From Candidatus Venteria ishoeyi (lineage in GTDB: Bacteria; Pseudomonadota; Gammaproteobacteria; Beggiatoales; Beggiatoaceae), in contig NZ_JAUCGJ010000037.1 in assembly GCF_030378065.1 (NCBI RefSeq), positions 1 through 45,365 of the forward strand: a stretch of DNA of 45,365 nt. Direction: 5' to 3'. Within the stretch, counting starts at the first letter, position 1, and each line of letters begins with the position of its first letter. The notes under the pieces were generated by a model that saw nothing but the letters and a program-made list of their open reading frames with translations, did not search any database and was not told the origin of the DNA. Positions 21,175-28,427 of this stretch are shown here, one piece after another. Both the position numbers and the translations under genes were made by a program.

Positions 21175-21627
21175 ATGAGCGTATTTAACCAAACCAACCA
21201 GCATGTAGGTACTCAAAATAATATTGTCAATGAAACCAGGAATGAAGGCGATACCTTCAACATGTCCGGTGATTTTCGCGGGGCCAATGTTAATATCAAA
21301 TCCACCTTGAATAATGTTACGCAAACAATTGGCGCACTGTCTAATGCAGATGATTCCCTCAAAGAAGAACTGAGTAAGCTAATCCAGCAACTCAATGATA
21401 CTCTGCAACAAGCACCCGCAGAAAAAGCTGAAGCAGCCGAGGCAGTGGCAAAAACCGCTGAAGTTCTGGTACAGACCAGCGCGGCGGAAAAGCCGAATAA
21501 AACCCTGTTGGAGATTACTGGCAAGGGACTGTTGGAAGCCAGCAAAGCCGTGGCAGACATTATGCCCACAGCCTTGAAAGTCGCTACACAGATTGTGGCT
21601 GTTGTCGGTAAAATCACCGGAGTATGA
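21175..21627 (+). CDS. 150-aa partner of the NLR-like gene
   Basis: The product begins with an Asn/Gly/Thr-rich, probably beta-forming region. Within it, residues 32-49 read GDFRGANVNIKSTLNNVT. A central acidic/Gln-rich helical region follows (about 55-100). The C-terminal segment (about 110-150) is amphipathic to hydrophobic and ends IAVVGKITGV-like. The GDFRGAxVxIKSTxNxVT motif recurs at residues 11-28 of the next protein, whose start overlaps this stop by 4 nt (ATGA). No enzyme domain is present. By analogy with motif-paired effector/NLR genes (HET-S/NWD2 in fungi, Bell/BASS pairs in bacteria), it could be an effector recruited through the shared motif. That function is inference. AAGGAA lies about 8 nt before the ATG. 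Confidence 0.7.
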   Translation: MSVFNQTNQHVGTQNNIVNETRNEGDTFNMSGDFRGANVNIKSTLNNVTQTIGALSNADDSLKEELSKLIQQLNDTLQQAPAEKAEAAEAVAKTAEVLVQTSAAEKPNKTLLEITGKGLLEASKAVADIMPTALKVATQIVAVVGKITGV

Positions 21628-23576
21628 CTATGGGCGATAAAATGGATTTACCGGGTGATTTTCGTGGTGCTACAGTTTACATAAAATCTACTGTTAATGG
21701 CGTTACAACAGAACGCGCTATCCCTCTCCACCGCCCACCAAGAGCGGCACATTTTACCGACCGGGTAGAAGCTTTAGCAAAACTACTGCAAGACCTCCGC
21801 CCCGGCAACACAGCTACCCTGTGCGGCCCCGGCGGCATCGGCAAAACCGCGCTGGCCACCGAAGCCATCTGGACACTGGCACCGGATAATAAAGCCCCTG
21901 AATTATTCCCTGACGGCATTTTCTTCCACAGCTTTTACAACGAACCCTCAGCGGACGTGGCGCTGGAATGGATAGCCCGTGCTTATGATGTGGATTCACA
22001 AGGCATGGCGGAACAGGCGGCGCGTCACGCCCTGAGTGGTCGTCATGCCCTGCTGGTGCTGGACGGTGCCGAAGATGCCGATGATTTACGCAAGGTTCAA
22101 AGCGTAGCGGGAAACTGCGGGGTGCTGGTCACCAGTCGCAAACGTCAAGATGCTATCGACCAGCGTCAGGATATGCAGCCCTTGAAACAAAAAGATGCGC
22201 TTAAACTGCTGCATGAATGGGCAGATCGTCAAATAGACAACGAACAAACAGCGCAACAGATTTGCCAACTGCTCGGCGGCCTGCCGCTGGCGGTACGCCT
22301 GGTGGGGCGCTATCTTAACGAAACCGAAGAAACCAGCACGGAATACCTGGCATGGCTGGAAAAAATGCCCCTGGAAGCCCTTGATCCTGACAACGAACAC
22401 CACCGTCATGCCTCGGTGCCGTATTTACTGGAGCGCAGTCTGGCGCAAGTCAGTGAAACTGCGCGGGATGTGTTGGCGCTGGTGGGTTTACTTGCCATGT
22501 CGCCATTCGATCAGGAAATCATCCGCCACAGTCTGCAACTATCTGAGGGTGATTTACGCAAGGCCATGCGGGATTTAATCGGCTACGGCCTGCTGCAACG
22601 TGAAGATGGTCGCTACCAGGTCAGCCATGCTTTAATCCACACCTACACCCGCGAATCCCTGCCACTTGCCGATGCCGTGTTTGAAAACCTGGTGAACTGG
22701 TATATCGACTTCGCTAAAACCGAAAGCGCCAAAGGACTAGCAGGTTATCAAGGACTGCACCCGGAACGCCCGCATTTGTTGTATTTGCTGGACAACTGTA
22801 TGCAGCGTCAAGCCTGGCAACTGGCTGAAAATATCAGCAGGGCAATAGAAAATTACCTGGATATTCAAGGCTACTGGGCAGAGTTGATTATCGTCCAGCA
22901 AACAGGACTGGAAGCGGCCTGCAAACTGGAAAACAAGCGCAACGAAGGGGTATGGCTGGGCAACCTGGGCAACACCTACCGCGCCCTGGGCCAGGTTGAG
23001 AAAGCCATAGCCTATCAAGAACAGGCTTTGCTTATCAGCCGGGAGATTGGGGATAAAAGTAATGAAGGCAACCAGTTGGGCAACCTGGGCAACGCCTACT
23101 ACGTCCTGGGCCAGGTTGAGAAAGCCATAGCCTATCATGAACAGGCTTTGCTTATCAGCCGGGAGATTGGGGACAGGCGCAACGAAGGGGCATGGCTAGG
23201 CAACCTGGGCAACGCCTACAGCGCCCTGGGCCAGGTTGAGAAAGCCATAGCCTATCATGAACAGGCTTTGCTTATCAGCCGGGAGATTGGGGATAAATCA
23301 GGAGAAGGTGCAGACTTGGGCAACCTGGGCAACGCCTACAGCGCCCTGGGCCAGGTTGAGAAAGCCATCGACTATCATGAACAGGCTTTGCTTATCAGCC
23401 GGGAGATTGGGGATAAATCAGGAGAAGGTGCAGACTTGGGCAACCTGGGCAACGCCTACAGCGCCCTGGGCCAGGTTGAGAAAGCCATCGACTATCATGA
23501 GAACAGGCTTTGCTTATCAGCCGGGAGATTGGTAACAGAAGCAGTGAAGGCAACCAGTTGGGCAACCTGGGCTTAG
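21624..23576 (+). CDS. NB-ARC/TPR STAND protein (NLR-like), first frame
   Basis: This frame encodes 650 residues. Residues 11-28 carry the motif shared with the upstream protein. The NB-ARC NTPase follows: Walker A GPGGIGKT (68-75), Walker B LLVLDG (143-148), VLVTSR sensor (168-172), GLPLAV (219-224) and a winged-helix region to about 345. A helical linker leads to TPR units of 40 residues (LGNLGNAYSALGQVEKAIAYHEQALL...) from about residue 433. A 2-nt insertion at about 23501-23502, inside the fifth TPR unit, throws the frame off and the frame ends at 23576. The remaining units continue in the frame 23510-24208. STAND proteins oligomerise on ligand binding by the repeats. There is no fused effector domain. 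The intact gene would encode about 860 residues. Confidence 0.85.
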   Translation: MTMGDKMDLPGDFRGATVYIKSTVNGVTTERAIPLHRPPRAAHFTDRVEALAKLLQDLRPGNTATLCGPGGIGKTALATEAIWTLAPDNKAPELFPDGIFFHSFYNEPSADVALEWIARAYDVDSQGMAEQAARHALSGRHALLVLDGAEDADDLRKVQSVAGNCGVLVTSRKRQDAIDQRQDMQPLKQKDALKLLHEWADRQIDNEQTAQQICQLLGGLPLAVRLVGRYLNETEETSTEYLAWLEKMPLEALDPDNEHHRHASVPYLLERSLAQVSETARDVLALVGLLAMSPFDQEIIRHSLQLSEGDLRKAMRDLIGYGLLQREDGRYQVSHALIHTYTRESLPLADAVFENLVNWYIDFAKTESAKGLAGYQGLHPERPHLLYLLDNCMQRQAWQLAENISRAIENYLDIQGYWAELIIVQQTGLEAACKLENKRNEGVWLGNLGNTYRALGQVEKAIAYQEQALLISREIGDKSNEGNQLGNLGNAYYVLGQVEKAIAYHEQALLISREIGDRRNEGAWLGNLGNAYSALGQVEKAIAYHEQALLISREIGDKSGEGADLGNLGNAYSALGQVEKAIDYHEQALLISREIGDKSGEGADLGNLGNAYSALGQVEKAIDYHENRLCLSAGRLVTEAVKATSWATWA

Positions 23577-24088
23577 CCTACCGCGCCCTGGGCCAGGTTG
23601 AGAAAGCCATAGCCTATCATGAACAGGCTTTGCTTATCAGCCGGGAGATTGGTAACAGAAACAGTGAAGGCAACCAGTTGGGCAACTTGGGCTTAGCCTA
23701 CAGCGCCCTAGGCCAGGTTGAGAAAGCCATAGCCTATCATGAACAGGCTTTGCTTATCAGCCGGGAGATTGGTAACAGAAACAGCGAAGGCAACCAGTTG
23801 GGCAACCTGGGCTTAGCCTACAGCAACCTGGGCCAGGTTGAGAAAGCCATCGACTATTATGAACAGGCTTTGGCTATTAAGCGAGAAATTGGAAACAAGC
23901 AGGGAATAGGCAATACATTGGGCAACCTGGGCTTAGCCTACAGCGACCTGGGCCAGGTTGAGAAAGCCATCGACTATCATGAACAGGCTTTGCTTATCAG
24001 CCGGGAGATTGGGAATAAACAACTAGAAGGCAATACATTGGGCAACCTGGGCAACGCCTACAGCGACCTGGGCCAGGTTGAGAAAGCA
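22946..24088 (+). repeat. Ten near-identical 120-bp TPR-coding units
   Basis: Units of 120 bp share long identical stretches (for example the block encoding LGQVEKAI), showing recent expansion and homogenisation. Variation is concentrated at a few codons (DKSNE, DRRNE, DKSGE, NRNSE, NKQLE). The fifth unit contains the 2-nt GA insertion at 23499-23502. Confidence 0.9.
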
Positions 24089-24208
24089 CGGGAGCTCTGG
24101 CAACAATCCCTGCAAATTTTTGAGGAAATCAAATCTCCCACTGCCGAAACAGTACGGCAATGGCTCAAAGACCTCGATACCAATAACCCCAGCAAACAAA
24201 CCAACTAA
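23510..24208 (+). CDS. NLR-like protein, TPR continuation after frameshift
   Basis: This 232-residue frame carries TPR units six to ten in register with the preceding gene and a closing helical cap (RELWQQSLQIFEEIKSPTAE...). It has no ribosome binding site of its own, and its first ATG lies in the middle of a TPR unit. It is therefore the displaced C-terminal part of the NB-ARC protein, not an independent gene, unless translated by slippage or reinitiation. A sequencing or assembly error in the repeats, a true mutation, or phase variation would all produce this picture. The following about 100 bp are Pro/Ala-rich in another frame without clear meaning. Confidence 0.6.
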   Translation: MLISREIGNRSSEGNQLGNLGLAYRALGQVEKAIAYHEQALLISREIGNRNSEGNQLGNLGLAYSALGQVEKAIAYHEQALLISREIGNRNSEGNQLGNLGLAYSNLGQVEKAIDYYEQALAIKREIGNKQGIGNTLGNLGLAYSDLGQVEKAIDYHEQALLISREIGNKQLEGNTLGNLGNAYSDLGQVEKARELWQQSLQIFEEIKSPTAETVRQWLKDLDTNNPSKQTN

Positions 24209-24742: not shown

Positions 24743-24867
24743 TATATATTGAATGATACATTTTGAATAAGCCATTGACCAATACATTTTGAATCAATCT
24801 TGAATCAATCTTGAGCAATACATATTGATTTCAATCACTGAAATTTTGTCTAAAAATTCATACTCAA

Positions 24868-25023
24868 ATTCCCTTGTTCCCAACGTCCTCGTTGGGAATG
24901 CAGACCTGGAAGCTCCAGCTTCCCGTATTCATTTCGGCAAGCTGGAGCTTGCAAGGCAGGCGTTACCAAGCTGGAGCTTGCAAGGCAGGCGTTACCAAGC
25001 TGGAGCTTGGTAACAAGGGAAAT
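24868..25023. mobile_element. Palindrome-rich element, copy 1
   Basis: The terminal inverted repeats are ATTCCCTTGTTCCCAA and TTGGTAACAAGGGAAAT. Inside are the hairpin TTCCCAACG/CGTTGGGAA, the palindrome GGAAGCTCCAGCTTCC and two tandem CAAGCTGGAGCTTG units. Elements like this are, as I recall, frequent in Beggiatoa-type genomes. No coding capacity. Confidence 0.65.
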
Positions 25024-25044
25024 TATCTTAAACATCAACCACTC

Positions 25045-25152
25045 TTTCCCTCGTTCCCAACGTCCTCGTTGGGAATGCAGACCTGGAAGCTCCAGCTTCC
25101 CGTATCCATTTCGGCAAGCGTTACTAAGCTGGAGCTTGGTAACAAGGGAAAT
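25045..25152. mobile_element. Palindrome-rich element, copy 2
   Basis: This copy has the same ends and internal hairpins as copy 1 in the same orientation but lacks the tandem CAAGCTGGAGCTTG expansion. The 1084-bp gap 24209-25292 thus holds a 33-aa ORF, its terminator, three mobile elements and two further palindromes, with the rest AT-rich and empty. Confidence 0.65.
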
Positions 25153-25161
25153 AATAACTTC

Positions 25162-25194
25162 AGGACTGGCAGTCCTTAAAGGACTGCCAGTCCT
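25162..25194. repeat. Perfect 15-bp palindrome
   Basis: AGGACTGGCAGTCCT (25162-25176) and its complement (25180-25194) flank TAA. Each arm is itself nearly palindromic (AGGACTG/CAGTCCT). It is probably a dispersed extragenic repeat. Confidence 0.7.
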
Positions 25195-25236
25195 ACGCTC
25201 AAAGTTATTATGTGAACTTAGTGTTCGCTGTACTAG

Positions 25237-25256
25237 ATTCCCGTCTACACGGGAAT
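25237..25256. repeat. 20-bp palindrome matching the dRS3-type pattern
   Basis: The sequence is ATTCCC-GTCTACAC-GGGAAT, which fits the ATTCCC-N8-GGGAAT consensus of Neisseria dRS3 repeats. It lies 36 bp past the stop of the minus-strand membrane protein gene. Confidence 0.6.
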
Positions 25257-25292
25257 GACAAAAACTGTGGTTTTCAGCTTAGACGGGGTTTA

Positions 25293-26060
25293 TTACATAT
25301 CTGCTTGCAGGCGCTTCCCCATATGCCGAAAACGCAGTTCAATATCCCAAGCTTCCAGATGGGTGCGGCGATTCAGGTATAAACTGAAACCACCCGCGAT
25401 ATAAAAGGGTTCAATCACAGCAATGGCAAGCAGGTTAAAACTGGCAAGCAGCCAGTAAGCCCAAGTATCGGCATATTCATCATGCACAGTCGCGGATAAT
25501 ATTTCATCAGCCCAATAGTCTGCGCTTTCCGGTAGAAAAAATAAAAATAATAGAATGAGAGAGCCATAAATCACCCATTCAAATAAAAAGCAGGCAATGC
25601 TTAAAGAACGTGCAATACCCATTTGGTTTTTGAGTAATAATCGCTGACGTTTGTGGCGTAGCCTAAAACCCAGGTTTTCCAATTGCCAGATGGGTAGGCG
25701 AAAACTACGTGAGAGGGATAAACGTAATAAAAACACGCCCAACCATAAACCTTTTTTAAAGATGGCATGTATAAAAGCGCGCAGGCTGGGCAAAATCGCG
25801 GGGTATTCACCGAATAAGGCGTGACTGAAAAAATGTAATAATAAAATATCCCATAGGGGTTTGAGTAACCAGACTACCAGCGCTGCCAGATAAGGCCATT
25901 GTGCCAGGAAGAAATAAACCAGCAGGCCCGATGGCAGGAATAACAATAACCAGAATCGATAGAGTTTGAGCGCATCGTGCTGGATTAAAACCAGCCCCAG
26001 ATCGATGGCTTCCCAGGGTGCGCGTGGACGTACAATCGCACGAATTTTATCCAGTTGCAT
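25293..26060 (-). CDS. Membrane protein of the SpoIIM-type operon
   Basis: From ATG 26060 the product has 255 residues. The opening RAIVRPRAPWEAIDLGLVLIQ pattern is typical, as I recall, of the multi-spanning protein encoded next to SpoIIM-like genes in gammaproteobacteria. About four hydrophobic stretches (near residues 38-70, 105-120, 165-185, 210-230) and many Arg residues on loops follow. Its start overlaps the SpoIIM-like stop by 14 nt, so coupling is likely. The longer frame to 26117 is inside the neighbouring gene and is rejected. Function unknown; a role in the envelope is inferred from topology. Confidence 0.7.
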   Translation of the reverse strand: MQLDKIRAIVRPRAPWEAIDLGLVLIQHDALKLYRFWLLLFLPSGLLVYFFLAQWPYLAALVVWLLKPLWDILLLHFFSHALFGEYPAILPSLRAFIHAIFKKGLWLGVFLLRLSLSRSFRLPIWQLENLGFRLRHKRQRLLLKNQMGIARSLSIACFLFEWVIYGSLILLFLFFLPESADYWADEILSATVHDEYADTWAYWLLASFNLLAIAVIEPFYIAGGFSLYLNRRTHLEAWDIELRFRHMGKRLQADM

Positions 26061-27033
26061 GAGTACGTCCTGCGCGGATGAAATAAGCGGCAATAAACAA
26101 CCAGAAAAACAAGCCAACGCTATATTTAATCGGTGCGGGTATCAGCGCGTTGGATGACCAGAATGCTTCCACCACTGCCGCCAGCGCCAGTAATAATATC
26201 ATGCCATAAACCAGCGGCATGGCTTGAGCAGCGGCACGGCGCAGGGAGGCTTTACGCGAATAGCGTCCCGGTGCGATTAGAGCAATACCCAATTTTAAGC
26301 CTGCCGCGCCTGACAGCACAATACCAGTGAGTTCAAAGGCGCTGTGTCCGGCAACAAAGGTGTAAAAGGTTTCGCTGTAACCCACCTTAAACATGTGTCC
26401 GGCGATAATGCCAATGACCATGCCGTTATAGATGAGAAAAAATAAGCTGCCAAGCCCCAGCAGCAGACCTGTGGCAAAGGTTTTAAAGCCAATACTGATA
26501 TTATTTTGAATATAAAAACCAAACATCATCATATCGGTGTCAGATTCCCGCTCGCGCCCGATACGCGAGAATGAGGGTTCGTACATGGCTTCATATTCCG
26601 CGACTTGTTCGCTGCCCATCACATCATAAATTAAATCTTCCTGCCATTGCGCCAGCATCCAGAAGGCCAGCAGCGGCCCGTAAAACAATAAGGAAGCGGC
26701 TAAAAACAGGCGTTTTTCGCTGCGTACCCGTTGTGGAAGGCCTGTGCTGAGAAATTCCCAGAGATTGCGCCAGAATCCGTCTGCCGGTTGGTATAACTGC
26801 TGTTGTCCGCGTAATACCAGTTGGTTTAAGCGGTTTTGTAAATAGGGGGAATAATGCCGTTCCCGTGCCAGCGCCAGATGTTGACACACCTGGCGATAGA
26901 GGGTGGGGAAGTTTTGTATAAGACCTTTCATGTCAGGCAGGCGTTGACGCATCGGTTTATCTTGCTCATTTAGCCAACGCTCCAGTTGCTTCCATTGCTG
27001 CTGATGCATTTGTTCAAATTGTTGTTGTTTCAT
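26047..27033 (-). CDS. SpoIIM-family (DUF95) membrane protein
   Basis: This is a 328-residue protein with a soluble, Gln-rich N-terminal region (1-105) and about five membrane helices. The family core GFYIQNNISIGFKTFATGLLLGLGS and GHSAFELTGIVLSGAAGLKLG is present. In sporulating Firmicutes SpoIIM anchors a peptidoglycan hydrolase complex; homologues in non-sporulating proteobacteria have no settled role. It overlaps the genes on both sides: the 50-aa ORF upstream (ATGA, 4 nt) and the membrane protein downstream (14 nt), so the three form a tight operon. Confidence 0.82.
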   Translation of the reverse strand: MKQQQFEQMHQQQWKQLERWLNEQDKPMRQRLPDMKGLIQNFPTLYRQVCQHLALARERHYSPYLQNRLNQLVLRGQQQLYQPADGFWRNLWEFLSTGLPQRVRSEKRLFLAASLLFYGPLLAFWMLAQWQEDLIYDVMGSEQVAEYEAMYEPSFSRIGRERESDTDMMMFGFYIQNNISIGFKTFATGLLLGLGSLFFLIYNGMVIGIIAGHMFKVGYSETFYTFVAGHSAFELTGIVLSGAAGLKLGIALIAPGRYSRKASLRRAAAQAMPLVYGMILLLALAAVVEAFWSSNALIPAPIKYSVGLFFWLFIAAYFIRAGRTHATG

Positions 27034-27182
27034 ATTTGATCACACTTAGGAAAGTCTTTCAAACAATATTTGCCTGATGGGTTTTGCGTTTCACAGACTT
27101 TGTATGCTTTGCCATTAACGGGACATCTATGCCGCTTGGAAGAAGTGTCCGAGGTGCAGGAGGTTGAACGGCAATCTGACAT
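27030..27182 (-). CDS. 50-aa Cys-rich protein, zinc-ribbon-like (CopZ N-terminal type)
   Basis: A small frame from ATG 27182 to TGA 27030 is preceded by AAAGGTG 8 nt upstream and overlaps the SpoIIM-like start by ATGA. The peptide has six Cys (residues 4, 9, 20, 30, 40, 47) and the stretch KRHRCPVNGKAYKVC. The CPxNG segment resembles the zinc-ribbon at the N-terminus of the CopZ-like iron-sulfur metallochaperones. The rest of that family is absent, so it is either a stand-alone metal-binding protein or a remnant. Start signals, overlap and Cys spacing support it as a gene. It accounts for much of the 27034-27355 gap; no clear promoter was seen in the remainder. Confidence 0.6.
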   Translation of the reverse strand: MSDCRSTSCTSDTSSKRHRCPVNGKAYKVCETQNPSGKYCLKDFPKCDQI

Positions 27183-27355
27183 ATCTGTACACCTTTATCG
27201 TTCTAAAAACCAGAATAAATGATACGGGAAAATAGCCTAATCTTAAAATTTCCCTGTTTCCAGCGTAAATCAGTAATGAATCAGGTTTGTTCAGAAGGCT
27301 TCCAATGGTATGCTATGAGTATTTTTTGCAACCCAGCCCAAAATAAAGAACAATT

Positions 27356-27979
27356 ATGGCCGATTCAGAACACTTGGCGGTGTTAATGCAAGGCATCAAA
27401 GCTTGGAACAGTTGGAGAGAGAACGCCTCGACCTGGGCCGACTTGTCCGGGAGCGATTTGTCGGGCCTAAATTTATCTAAGGGTGAGTTTTTCAGAGCGA
27501 ACTTGTCCCGGGTTGATTTAACCAAGGCAAACCTGAGCGGTGCCAACCTCAATGGCGCAAACCTAACTGAAGCTAACTTGTCTAAAGCCAACCTGACCCG
27601 CGCAAACCTTAATGAAGCCAATCTCAGTGAGGCCTATATGTCAGATACCACCCTGACAGATGCTACGCTGAGCGAGGCTAACTTATCCAAAGCCTATTTG
27701 ATACGCTGCTTTCTCTCTGGCGTTAATCTCAGCGAGGCGAATCTGTTTCGCGCCAATTTGTTTGAATCGGATATGTTTCGTGCCAATATGACAGGATCGA
27801 ATTTATTTAAGGCCAATCTGACTGATGCCAATCTTATTGAAGTGTATTTGTCTAATGCCGATTTATTTAAGGCTAATTTCACCGGGGCCGATCTGACCAG
27901 CGCCATTTTAATTAATGCCAATATCGTTGAAACCGATTTTACCAATGCCGATCTGAGTAAAGTTAAACGCAATGAGTGA
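27356..27979 (+). CDS. Pentapeptide-repeat protein
   Basis: This is a 207-residue protein. After a short N-terminal helix (HLAVLMQGIKAWNSWREN) it consists of about 33 A(D/N)LxX pentapeptides (ANLSGANLNGANLTEANLS...) forming a right-handed quadrilateral beta-helix. There is no signal peptide or membrane segment. Some family members (Qnr, MfpA) mimic DNA and protect gyrase, but most have no known target. The gene overlaps recX by 8 nt, suggesting coupled expression with a recombination regulator, which is an unusual partner. Confidence 0.88.
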   Translation: MADSEHLAVLMQGIKAWNSWRENASTWADLSGSDLSGLNLSKGEFFRANLSRVDLTKANLSGANLNGANLTEANLSKANLTRANLNEANLSEAYMSDTTLTDATLSEANLSKAYLIRCFLSGVNLSEANLFRANLFESDMFRANMTGSNLFKANLTDANLIEVYLSNADLFKANFTGADLTSAILINANIVETDFTNADLSKVKRNE

Positions 27980-28427
27980 TGATGAAGTCGCATATAAGGC
28001 CGCTTATAATGCCGGACTTGCTGCACTGAGCCGCCGTGATTACGCTAAGGTGGAATTGCAGCGTAAACTGGCGGCTAAAGGCTTAGCGGCAGAAGCTATC
28101 ACCAATGCCTTAGAAAAACTTCAGGAACAGCATTATCTGGATGAATCCCGCTTTGTCGAAAACTTTATTCAAACCCGCTGTAACCAGGGTTATGGCCCAC
28201 AAAGAATACGCCAGGAATTACGCCATCGTGGTATTGATGAAGACTTGATAACAACAGCACTTGAGCAGCAGACAGTAGACTGGTGGCAGCAAGCACATCA
28301 AGTCCGGGAAAAACGCTTTGGGCAGCAACTGCCAGAGTCGATGAAACAGCGGGCCAAGCAAATGCGCTTTTTAAGTTATCGGGGTTTTAGCAGTGAGCAA
28401 ATTCGCGCTGTTTTGTCAGAAGACTAA
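27972..28427 (+). CDS. recX: Regulatory protein RecX
   Basis: RecX binds RecA filaments and inhibits recombination and strand exchange. The 151 residues show three RecX three-helix repeats (ALSRRDYAKVELQRKLAAKG, YLDESRFVENFIQTRCNQGYGP, RIRQELRHRGI) and the closing FLSYRGFSSEQIRAVL. Length is normal. It starts 8 nt inside the pentapeptide-repeat gene. recA, its usual upstream neighbour, is not in this window, so recX has been uncoupled from it. Confidence 0.92.
   Translation: MSDDEVAYKAAYNAGLAALSRRDYAKVELQRKLAAKGLAAEAITNALEKLQEQHYLDESRFVENFIQTRCNQGYGPQRIRQELRHRGIDEDLITTALEQQTVDWWQQAHQVREKRFGQQLPESMKQRAKQMRFLSYRGFSSEQIRAVLSED

Follow-up and report, generated by a model that had tools for sequence, protein, structure and literature searches.

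We analyzed a 45,365-nucleotide stretch of the Candidatus Venteria ishoeyi genome (contig NZ_JAUCGJ010000037.1, hereafter the window) in which a short open reading frame precedes a SpoIIM-family gene. A sequence-only reading of this DNA had described a 50-residue protein with six cysteines at positions 27030–27182 without naming a strand. The frame, which we call P0001, is present and lies on the minus strand, running from 27182 to 27030 with its TGA stop included; the plus-strand reading of the same positions is interrupted by stops. Its translation starts with ATG, is 50 amino acids long, and follows the outline MSDC...CPVNG...NPSG...CDQI. The six cysteines and the CPxNG segment of the earlier description can both be seen in it, the latter as CPVNG. 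The reported ribosome binding site was also recovered. A Shine-Dalgarno-like AAAGGTG (27190–27196, minus strand) sits 7 nt before the ATG and has a predicted pairing energy of −3.9 kcal/mol with the anti-SD sequence. Further upstream, the same strand carries one promoter-like site (27246–27219), but it is uninformative because 1.1 such sites are expected by chance in the scanned stretch. The downstream gene (26047–27033, minus strand) encodes an intact 328-residue membrane protein of the SpoIIM family (PF01944; Pfam SpoIIM E 5.8e-33) that is 46.0–58.8% identical to homologues in the taxonomic family. The TGA of P0001 falls within the ATGA that opens this gene, just as the sequence-only reading had it.

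Both ends of P0001 are homologous to a longer known protein. The NCBIfam profile NF047645 (CopZ_Nterm_CC), which is annotated as a putative iron-sulfur cluster-binding metallochaperone, matched P0001 with an E value of 1.2e-5 over residues 30–45 only, corresponding to profile positions 123–138 of 138. This score is far under the curated cut-off (25.6 bits vs 100, and 15.6 bits at genome level). Scanning a one-genome-per-species collection with P0001, with an exact eight-residue pattern required, gave 107 stretches, three of which encode relatives (L020, L021, and L022). These relatives are proteins of 140–141 amino acids. The N-terminus of P0001 (27099–27182, minus strand; MSDC..., then KRHRCPVNG..YK) is 68% identical to L021 and 61% identical to L022 over residues 1–28, and 59% identical to L020 over residues 1–32. 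This segment extends into the beginning of the zf_CopZ domain (Pfam PF18423). Residues 29–46 (27045–27098, minus strand; CETxNPSGKxCLKDFPK) correspond to the C-terminal segment of the three relatives and are 72–78% identical to residues 123–140 of L004, L020, L021, L022, and L026.

In the alignment, P0001 consists of residues 1–28 and 123–140 of the full-length protein, with residues 29–122 missing in frame and no insertion at the junction. The junction lies between codons 28 and 29 (27098–27099, minus strand), where 94 residues of L021 are absent. Searches with tblastn placed it at the same point: the N-terminal matches to L021 and L022 stop at 27099, the one to L020 continues for four more residues, and all three C-terminal matches begin at 27098. 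Homology of both ends, found in the same order, supports the descent of P0001 from the CopZ_Nterm_CC family. The similarity of P0001 to 13 full-length relatives scored 106 for the N-terminal part and 85 for the C-terminal part. None of 3000 composition-preserving shuffles of P0001 reached either score (maxima 67 and 58, respectively), which puts a coding origin beyond chance. The proposed likeness to a CopZ-type N-terminus thus holds insofar as the frame is coding and related to the CopZ N-terminal region. P0001 does not, however, represent an intact microprotein family; it resembles the NF047645/PF18423 family in carrying both ends in order and differs from it in joining them across a 94-residue in-frame gap.

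The segment after FPK consists of four residues, CDQI, and the TGA (27030–27044, minus strand), and it runs into the SpoIIM start. L020, L021, and L022 have 0–1 residues at this point, and other family members are longer. The original stop may have been lost, but such a loss would be no independent sign of decay because a tail beyond FPK is within family variation. Other identities were considered and rejected. An SVWC-type cysteine domain matched P0001 under the cut-off (Pfam E 0.14). A frameshifted full-length gene was dismissed after tblastn of the 13 relatives and P0001 against the whole window returned the two end pieces, with matches elsewhere at E 0.14 or worse. A search of the genome for a YHS-type metal domain gave no match over the cut-off.

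We compared the metal-site segments of P0001 with those of its relatives. The zf_CopZ domain was detected in L020, L021, and L022 at residues 18–74 or 18–78, and it was not detected in P0001 by the Pfam scan. L021 also aligns with PDB 2HU9 over residues 19–135 (E 9.4e-13), including the CP, FC....C, CYC, and C...NPSGxCC segments. The molecule name in this entry is 'Mercuric transport protein periplasmic component', and we take the structure to be the N-terminal domain of Archaeoglobus fulgidus CopZ. While full-length L021 aligns with this domain, P0001 keeps only the first (CPVNG) and last (C..xNPSGxxC) cysteine segments. The missing block holds FC....C (residues 55 and 60, in the zinc domain) and CYC (residues 93 and 95, in the iron-sulfur part), and the only cysteines left in P0001 from these metal-site segments are C20, C30, and C40. 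Sazinsky et al. (2007) reportedly identified the cluster ligands of 2HU9 as Cys75, 77, 109, and 119. In that case, the relatives would carry all four of them and P0001 two. A review (PMC7558416) describes the fused iron-sulfur domain of CopZ and Cu(II) reduction.

Conserved cysteines are changed on both sides of the gap. P0001 departs from two of the 13 columns that are invariant in the 13 full-length relatives (C5R and C134Y). In a leave-one-out control on the same relatives, eight of the 13 showed no departure and five showed one. At the N-terminus, the MSxCC-type pair is broken, with CC changed to CR. At the C-terminus, the C..xNPSGxCCLxDFP segment is present, but its CC reads YC, a Tyr having replaced the first Cys. 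In a broader comparison of 29 distinct frames, all 26 that reach the C-terminal end have the CC there, and 26 of 29 have a CC near the N-terminus. Because the N-terminal pair is also altered in L028 and L070 (L072 lacks a normal start in the frame read), C5R alone is weak evidence. Judged from these comparisons, P0001 probably no longer works as a metallochaperone, since some of the cysteines are gone from each metal-site segment.

The distribution of the family was surveyed in 95 genomes, including 42 of the taxonomic family, and in 369 genomes of the class, none of the others being of the same genus. Searches of the genome itself found no second copy of P0001 (next match E 0.66; the profile search matched the 27030–27182 locus only) and no full-length CopZ_Nterm_CC copy, the P0001 site being the sole profile match. 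Members over the cut-off occur in 0 of the 42 genomes of the taxonomic family and in 3 of all 95. At E 0.1 or better, the P0001 search matched 12 of the 95 genomes, its own included. Three of these have full-length members (G073, G083, and G092), and eight gave weak matches (E 0.02–0.09), four in the same taxonomic family (G020, G023, G024, and G027) and four in other genomes (G044, G048, G076, and G082). At the eight weak loci, short stretches match P0001 but hardly match the full-length relatives (best E 0.005 for L009 and 0.009 for L010), and the CopZ profile built here has no match there. We took them as chance matches rather than family members. One of them, L009 from G076, contains an SCC..RHRCPSNG-like stretch of 17–26 residues at about 1477–1554 on its minus strand without the family C-terminus; this stretch could be a chance resemblance or a second N-terminal fragment in decay. 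The weak matches in G388 and G092 (L087 and L088) also look like chance, but the count of 51 loci matched by the CopZ profile includes them.

In the class, the P0001 search matched 10 of 369 genomes at E 0.001 or better, its own included, and the other nine matches lie in frames of 92–153 amino acids. The family profile gave 25 over-cut-off matches in 24 of the 369 genomes. All of these span at least positions 3–137, and one has an internal stop. Neither the P0001 searches nor the profile searches of the 95 and 369 genomes turned up a convincing second example of the P0001 short form. Four partial forms fall below the cut-off with a clear score. The form in G337 stops at a contig end, the form in G272 leaves family similarity in mid-frame, and the form in G134 has the family C-terminal part with a different N-terminus. 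The fourth, in G149 (L084, 1489–1716), is a 75-residue frame that lacks the zinc domain and passes straight from its MSCC start into a complete CYC...NPSGxCC iron-sulfur part. The G149 form demonstrates that natural shortening of the family exists. All of the iron-sulfur cysteines are retained in it, whereas the gap in P0001 cuts into the zinc and the iron-sulfur part alike.

The neighborhoods of full-length CopZ_Nterm_CC genes were sampled through 10 proteins from 9 of 27 loci, hand-picked as metal-related-looking or close. MerT, MerC, or HMA (MerP-like) genes flank the full-length gene in three of these nine loci (L063, L076, and L078). This hints that the parent family may act on mercury or other heavy metals and not on copper alone. 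A literature search for zf-CopZ found no paper, and among the matches listed in the other searches none dealt with the parent family beyond Archaeoglobus CopZ.

The sequence-only reading had cast P0001 as the first gene of a SpoIIM operon. SpoIIM is present in 23 of the 42 genomes of the taxonomic family, including this one. We looked at about 0.5–1.2 kb upstream of SpoIIM at 22 Beggiatoaceae loci from other genomes and found a CopZ-type gene at none of them. No SpoIIM gene was seen in the examined flanks of 48 other loci matched by the CopZ profile, a set that contains some weak matches and some re-fetches. Among 90 loci, the SpoIIM profile matched 26 (22 from other genomes, three window copies, and one re-fetch) and the CopZ profile matched 51. 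Both profiles matched together only in the three window copies. The SpoIIM profile was made from this taxonomic family and may miss distant SpoIIM proteins, and SpoIIM starts were set by a pattern rule. At one of the 22 loci (L056), SpoIIM is cut off by a contig end and no start was set, and the SpoIIM gene of L034 is broken into two frames.

ATGA opens SpoIIM in each of the 22 starts compared, 21 from relatives and one from the window. The overlap with P0001 is nearly automatic because this start is conserved and any frame in that phase ends there; on the evidence of these sequences, it is no sign of design. With the linkage found at 0 of 22 other SpoIIM loci and the overlap following from the conserved start, the coupled-operon proposal is not upheld. 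The downstream gene is an intact member of the SpoIIM family (PF01944/COG1300), and P0001 is neither related to it nor a conserved neighbor. P0001 gives no clue to SpoIIM function in non-sporulating bacteria. Of the two signs that the sequence-only reading had named as counting against its proposal, the absence of upstream homologues was seen at the loci searched. Frame disruption in the closest relatives was not: these are intact and full-length, and the changed copy is P0001 itself.

SpoIIM is preceded in several relatives by a gene whose product resembles an RDD-type membrane protein. The RDD name reflects resemblance to the PF06271 protein of the Candidatus Venteria ishoeyi genome. We rejected the idea that P0001 is the tail of such a protein. 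The tails in L036, L039, and L050 end in A-N-(S/G)-LIG plus 0–2 residues, unlike P0001, and the genome's own PF06271 matches sit on other contigs (C17 and C19), away from SpoIIM. At L058 and L059 (contig C19), an RDD-type gene adjoins an RDD protein with a DnaJ-like N-terminal sequence (named by eye). A search of the literature for papers linking at least two of SpoIIM, RDD, and DUF4129 found none.

We conclude, with a probability of about 0.82, that P0001 is the remnant of a CopZ_Nterm_CC gene with an internal in-frame deletion and is functionally unconnected with SpoIIM. The parent would have been a gene for a 140-residue protein in which a zinc-binding zf_CopZ domain precedes a [2Fe-2S]-type cysteine region. 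A full-length copy probably reached the lineage by horizontal transfer. This copy would then have been shortened by the in-frame loss of 94 internal codons (282 bp), with its frame now ending at the TGA inside the conserved ATGA of SpoIIM. The remnant would now be without function, and if it is translated, only incidental translational coupling to SpoIIM expression would be expected. Its position before SpoIIM looks accidental, and most likely there is no functional relation between the two genes.

Some observations count against a remnant. P0001 still has an open frame, its ATG, and an undamaged Shine-Dalgarno sequence, and only one deletion in three would be in frame. Among the codons that remain, no acceleration is seen (pN 0.167 and pS 0.94 against L021), and the terminal branch of P0001 (0.24) is within the range of L020, L021, L022, and L024 (0.13–0.44) in a weakly supported tree. 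Conservation of the kept codons would fit either purifying selection or a recent deletion. Selection before the deletion cannot be separated from selection after it because synonymous sites are saturated, and the deletion cannot be dated because the searched genomes include none of the same genus.

These observations bear on two readings in which the short frame is maintained by selection. The shortened product could be a working microprotein in which C4, C9, C20, C30, C40, and C47 together create a small metal- or redox-binding site that is new. Such a peptide would account for the intact signals of P0001 and for kept residues that are as conserved as in intact relatives, and the 75-residue frame of G149 is a natural precedent for shortening. 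We nevertheless consider it unlikely: the G149 form has its full set of iron-sulfur cysteines whereas both parts of P0001 are cut, two more conserved cysteines are changed, and the searched genomes contain no convincing second short form. AlphaFold was uninformative either way because the full-length control was poor too (pLDDT 39.1, compared with 45.6 for P0001). The frame could instead be kept as a translated leader, with ribosomes that finish P0001 re-starting at the overlapping SpoIIM ATG. The ATGA overlap would allow this, the predicted anti-SD pairing of SpoIIM itself is weak (−0.9 kcal/mol, against the −3.9 kcal/mol of P0001), and in L036, L039, and L050 an upstream RDD-like gene shows an equivalent four-base overlap with SpoIIM. 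However, 12 of 21 relatives show even weaker pairing ahead of SpoIIM, and none of these is among the three loci with that overlap, which indicates that coupling is not needed. The overlap itself arises automatically once an in-phase frame runs into the conserved ATGA. A translated leader is therefore very unlikely. Taken together, a working peptide or leader remains rather unlikely, and we did not lower our estimate further because the kept residues are conserved but the timing of selection is inseparable. The stronger version, in which a new 50-residue cysteine peptide built from two CopZ half-sites is expressed as the first SpoIIM cistron and provides new metal binding or makes SpoIIM translation dependent on the ribosomes reading it, is quite unlikely.

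Collapse of a full-length gene to 50 codons during assembly was also weighed, as the draft assembly comprises 115 contigs. We regard this as highly improbable. The loss is exactly in frame, conserved cysteines are changed on both sides of it, and inspection by eye of the codons of four relatives showed no obvious direct repeat across the junction.

The most likely account of the locus is an ordinary remnant of a known family beside an ordinary SpoIIM-family gene. The case calls for caution, as a small, cysteine-rich open reading frame that has a good ribosome binding site and overlaps a conserved gene by ATGA mimicked a new microprotein until end-to-end comparison revealed two ends of a longer known protein joined together. 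Should P0001 turn out to be an expressed and useful peptide, it would clearly exemplify the origin of a small protein through internal deletion.

Three further features were observed elsewhere in the window. A TPR-repeat gene (21624–24208) seems to be split by a frameshift within its repeats, with a 650-residue frame ending at 23576 and the repeat continuing in another frame from 23510. Between this gene and the SpoIIM operon (24825–25260), similar short peptides are encoded on both strands, which suggests a dispersed repeat. At 27356–28427, a divergently placed pentapeptide-repeat gene overlaps the recX start.
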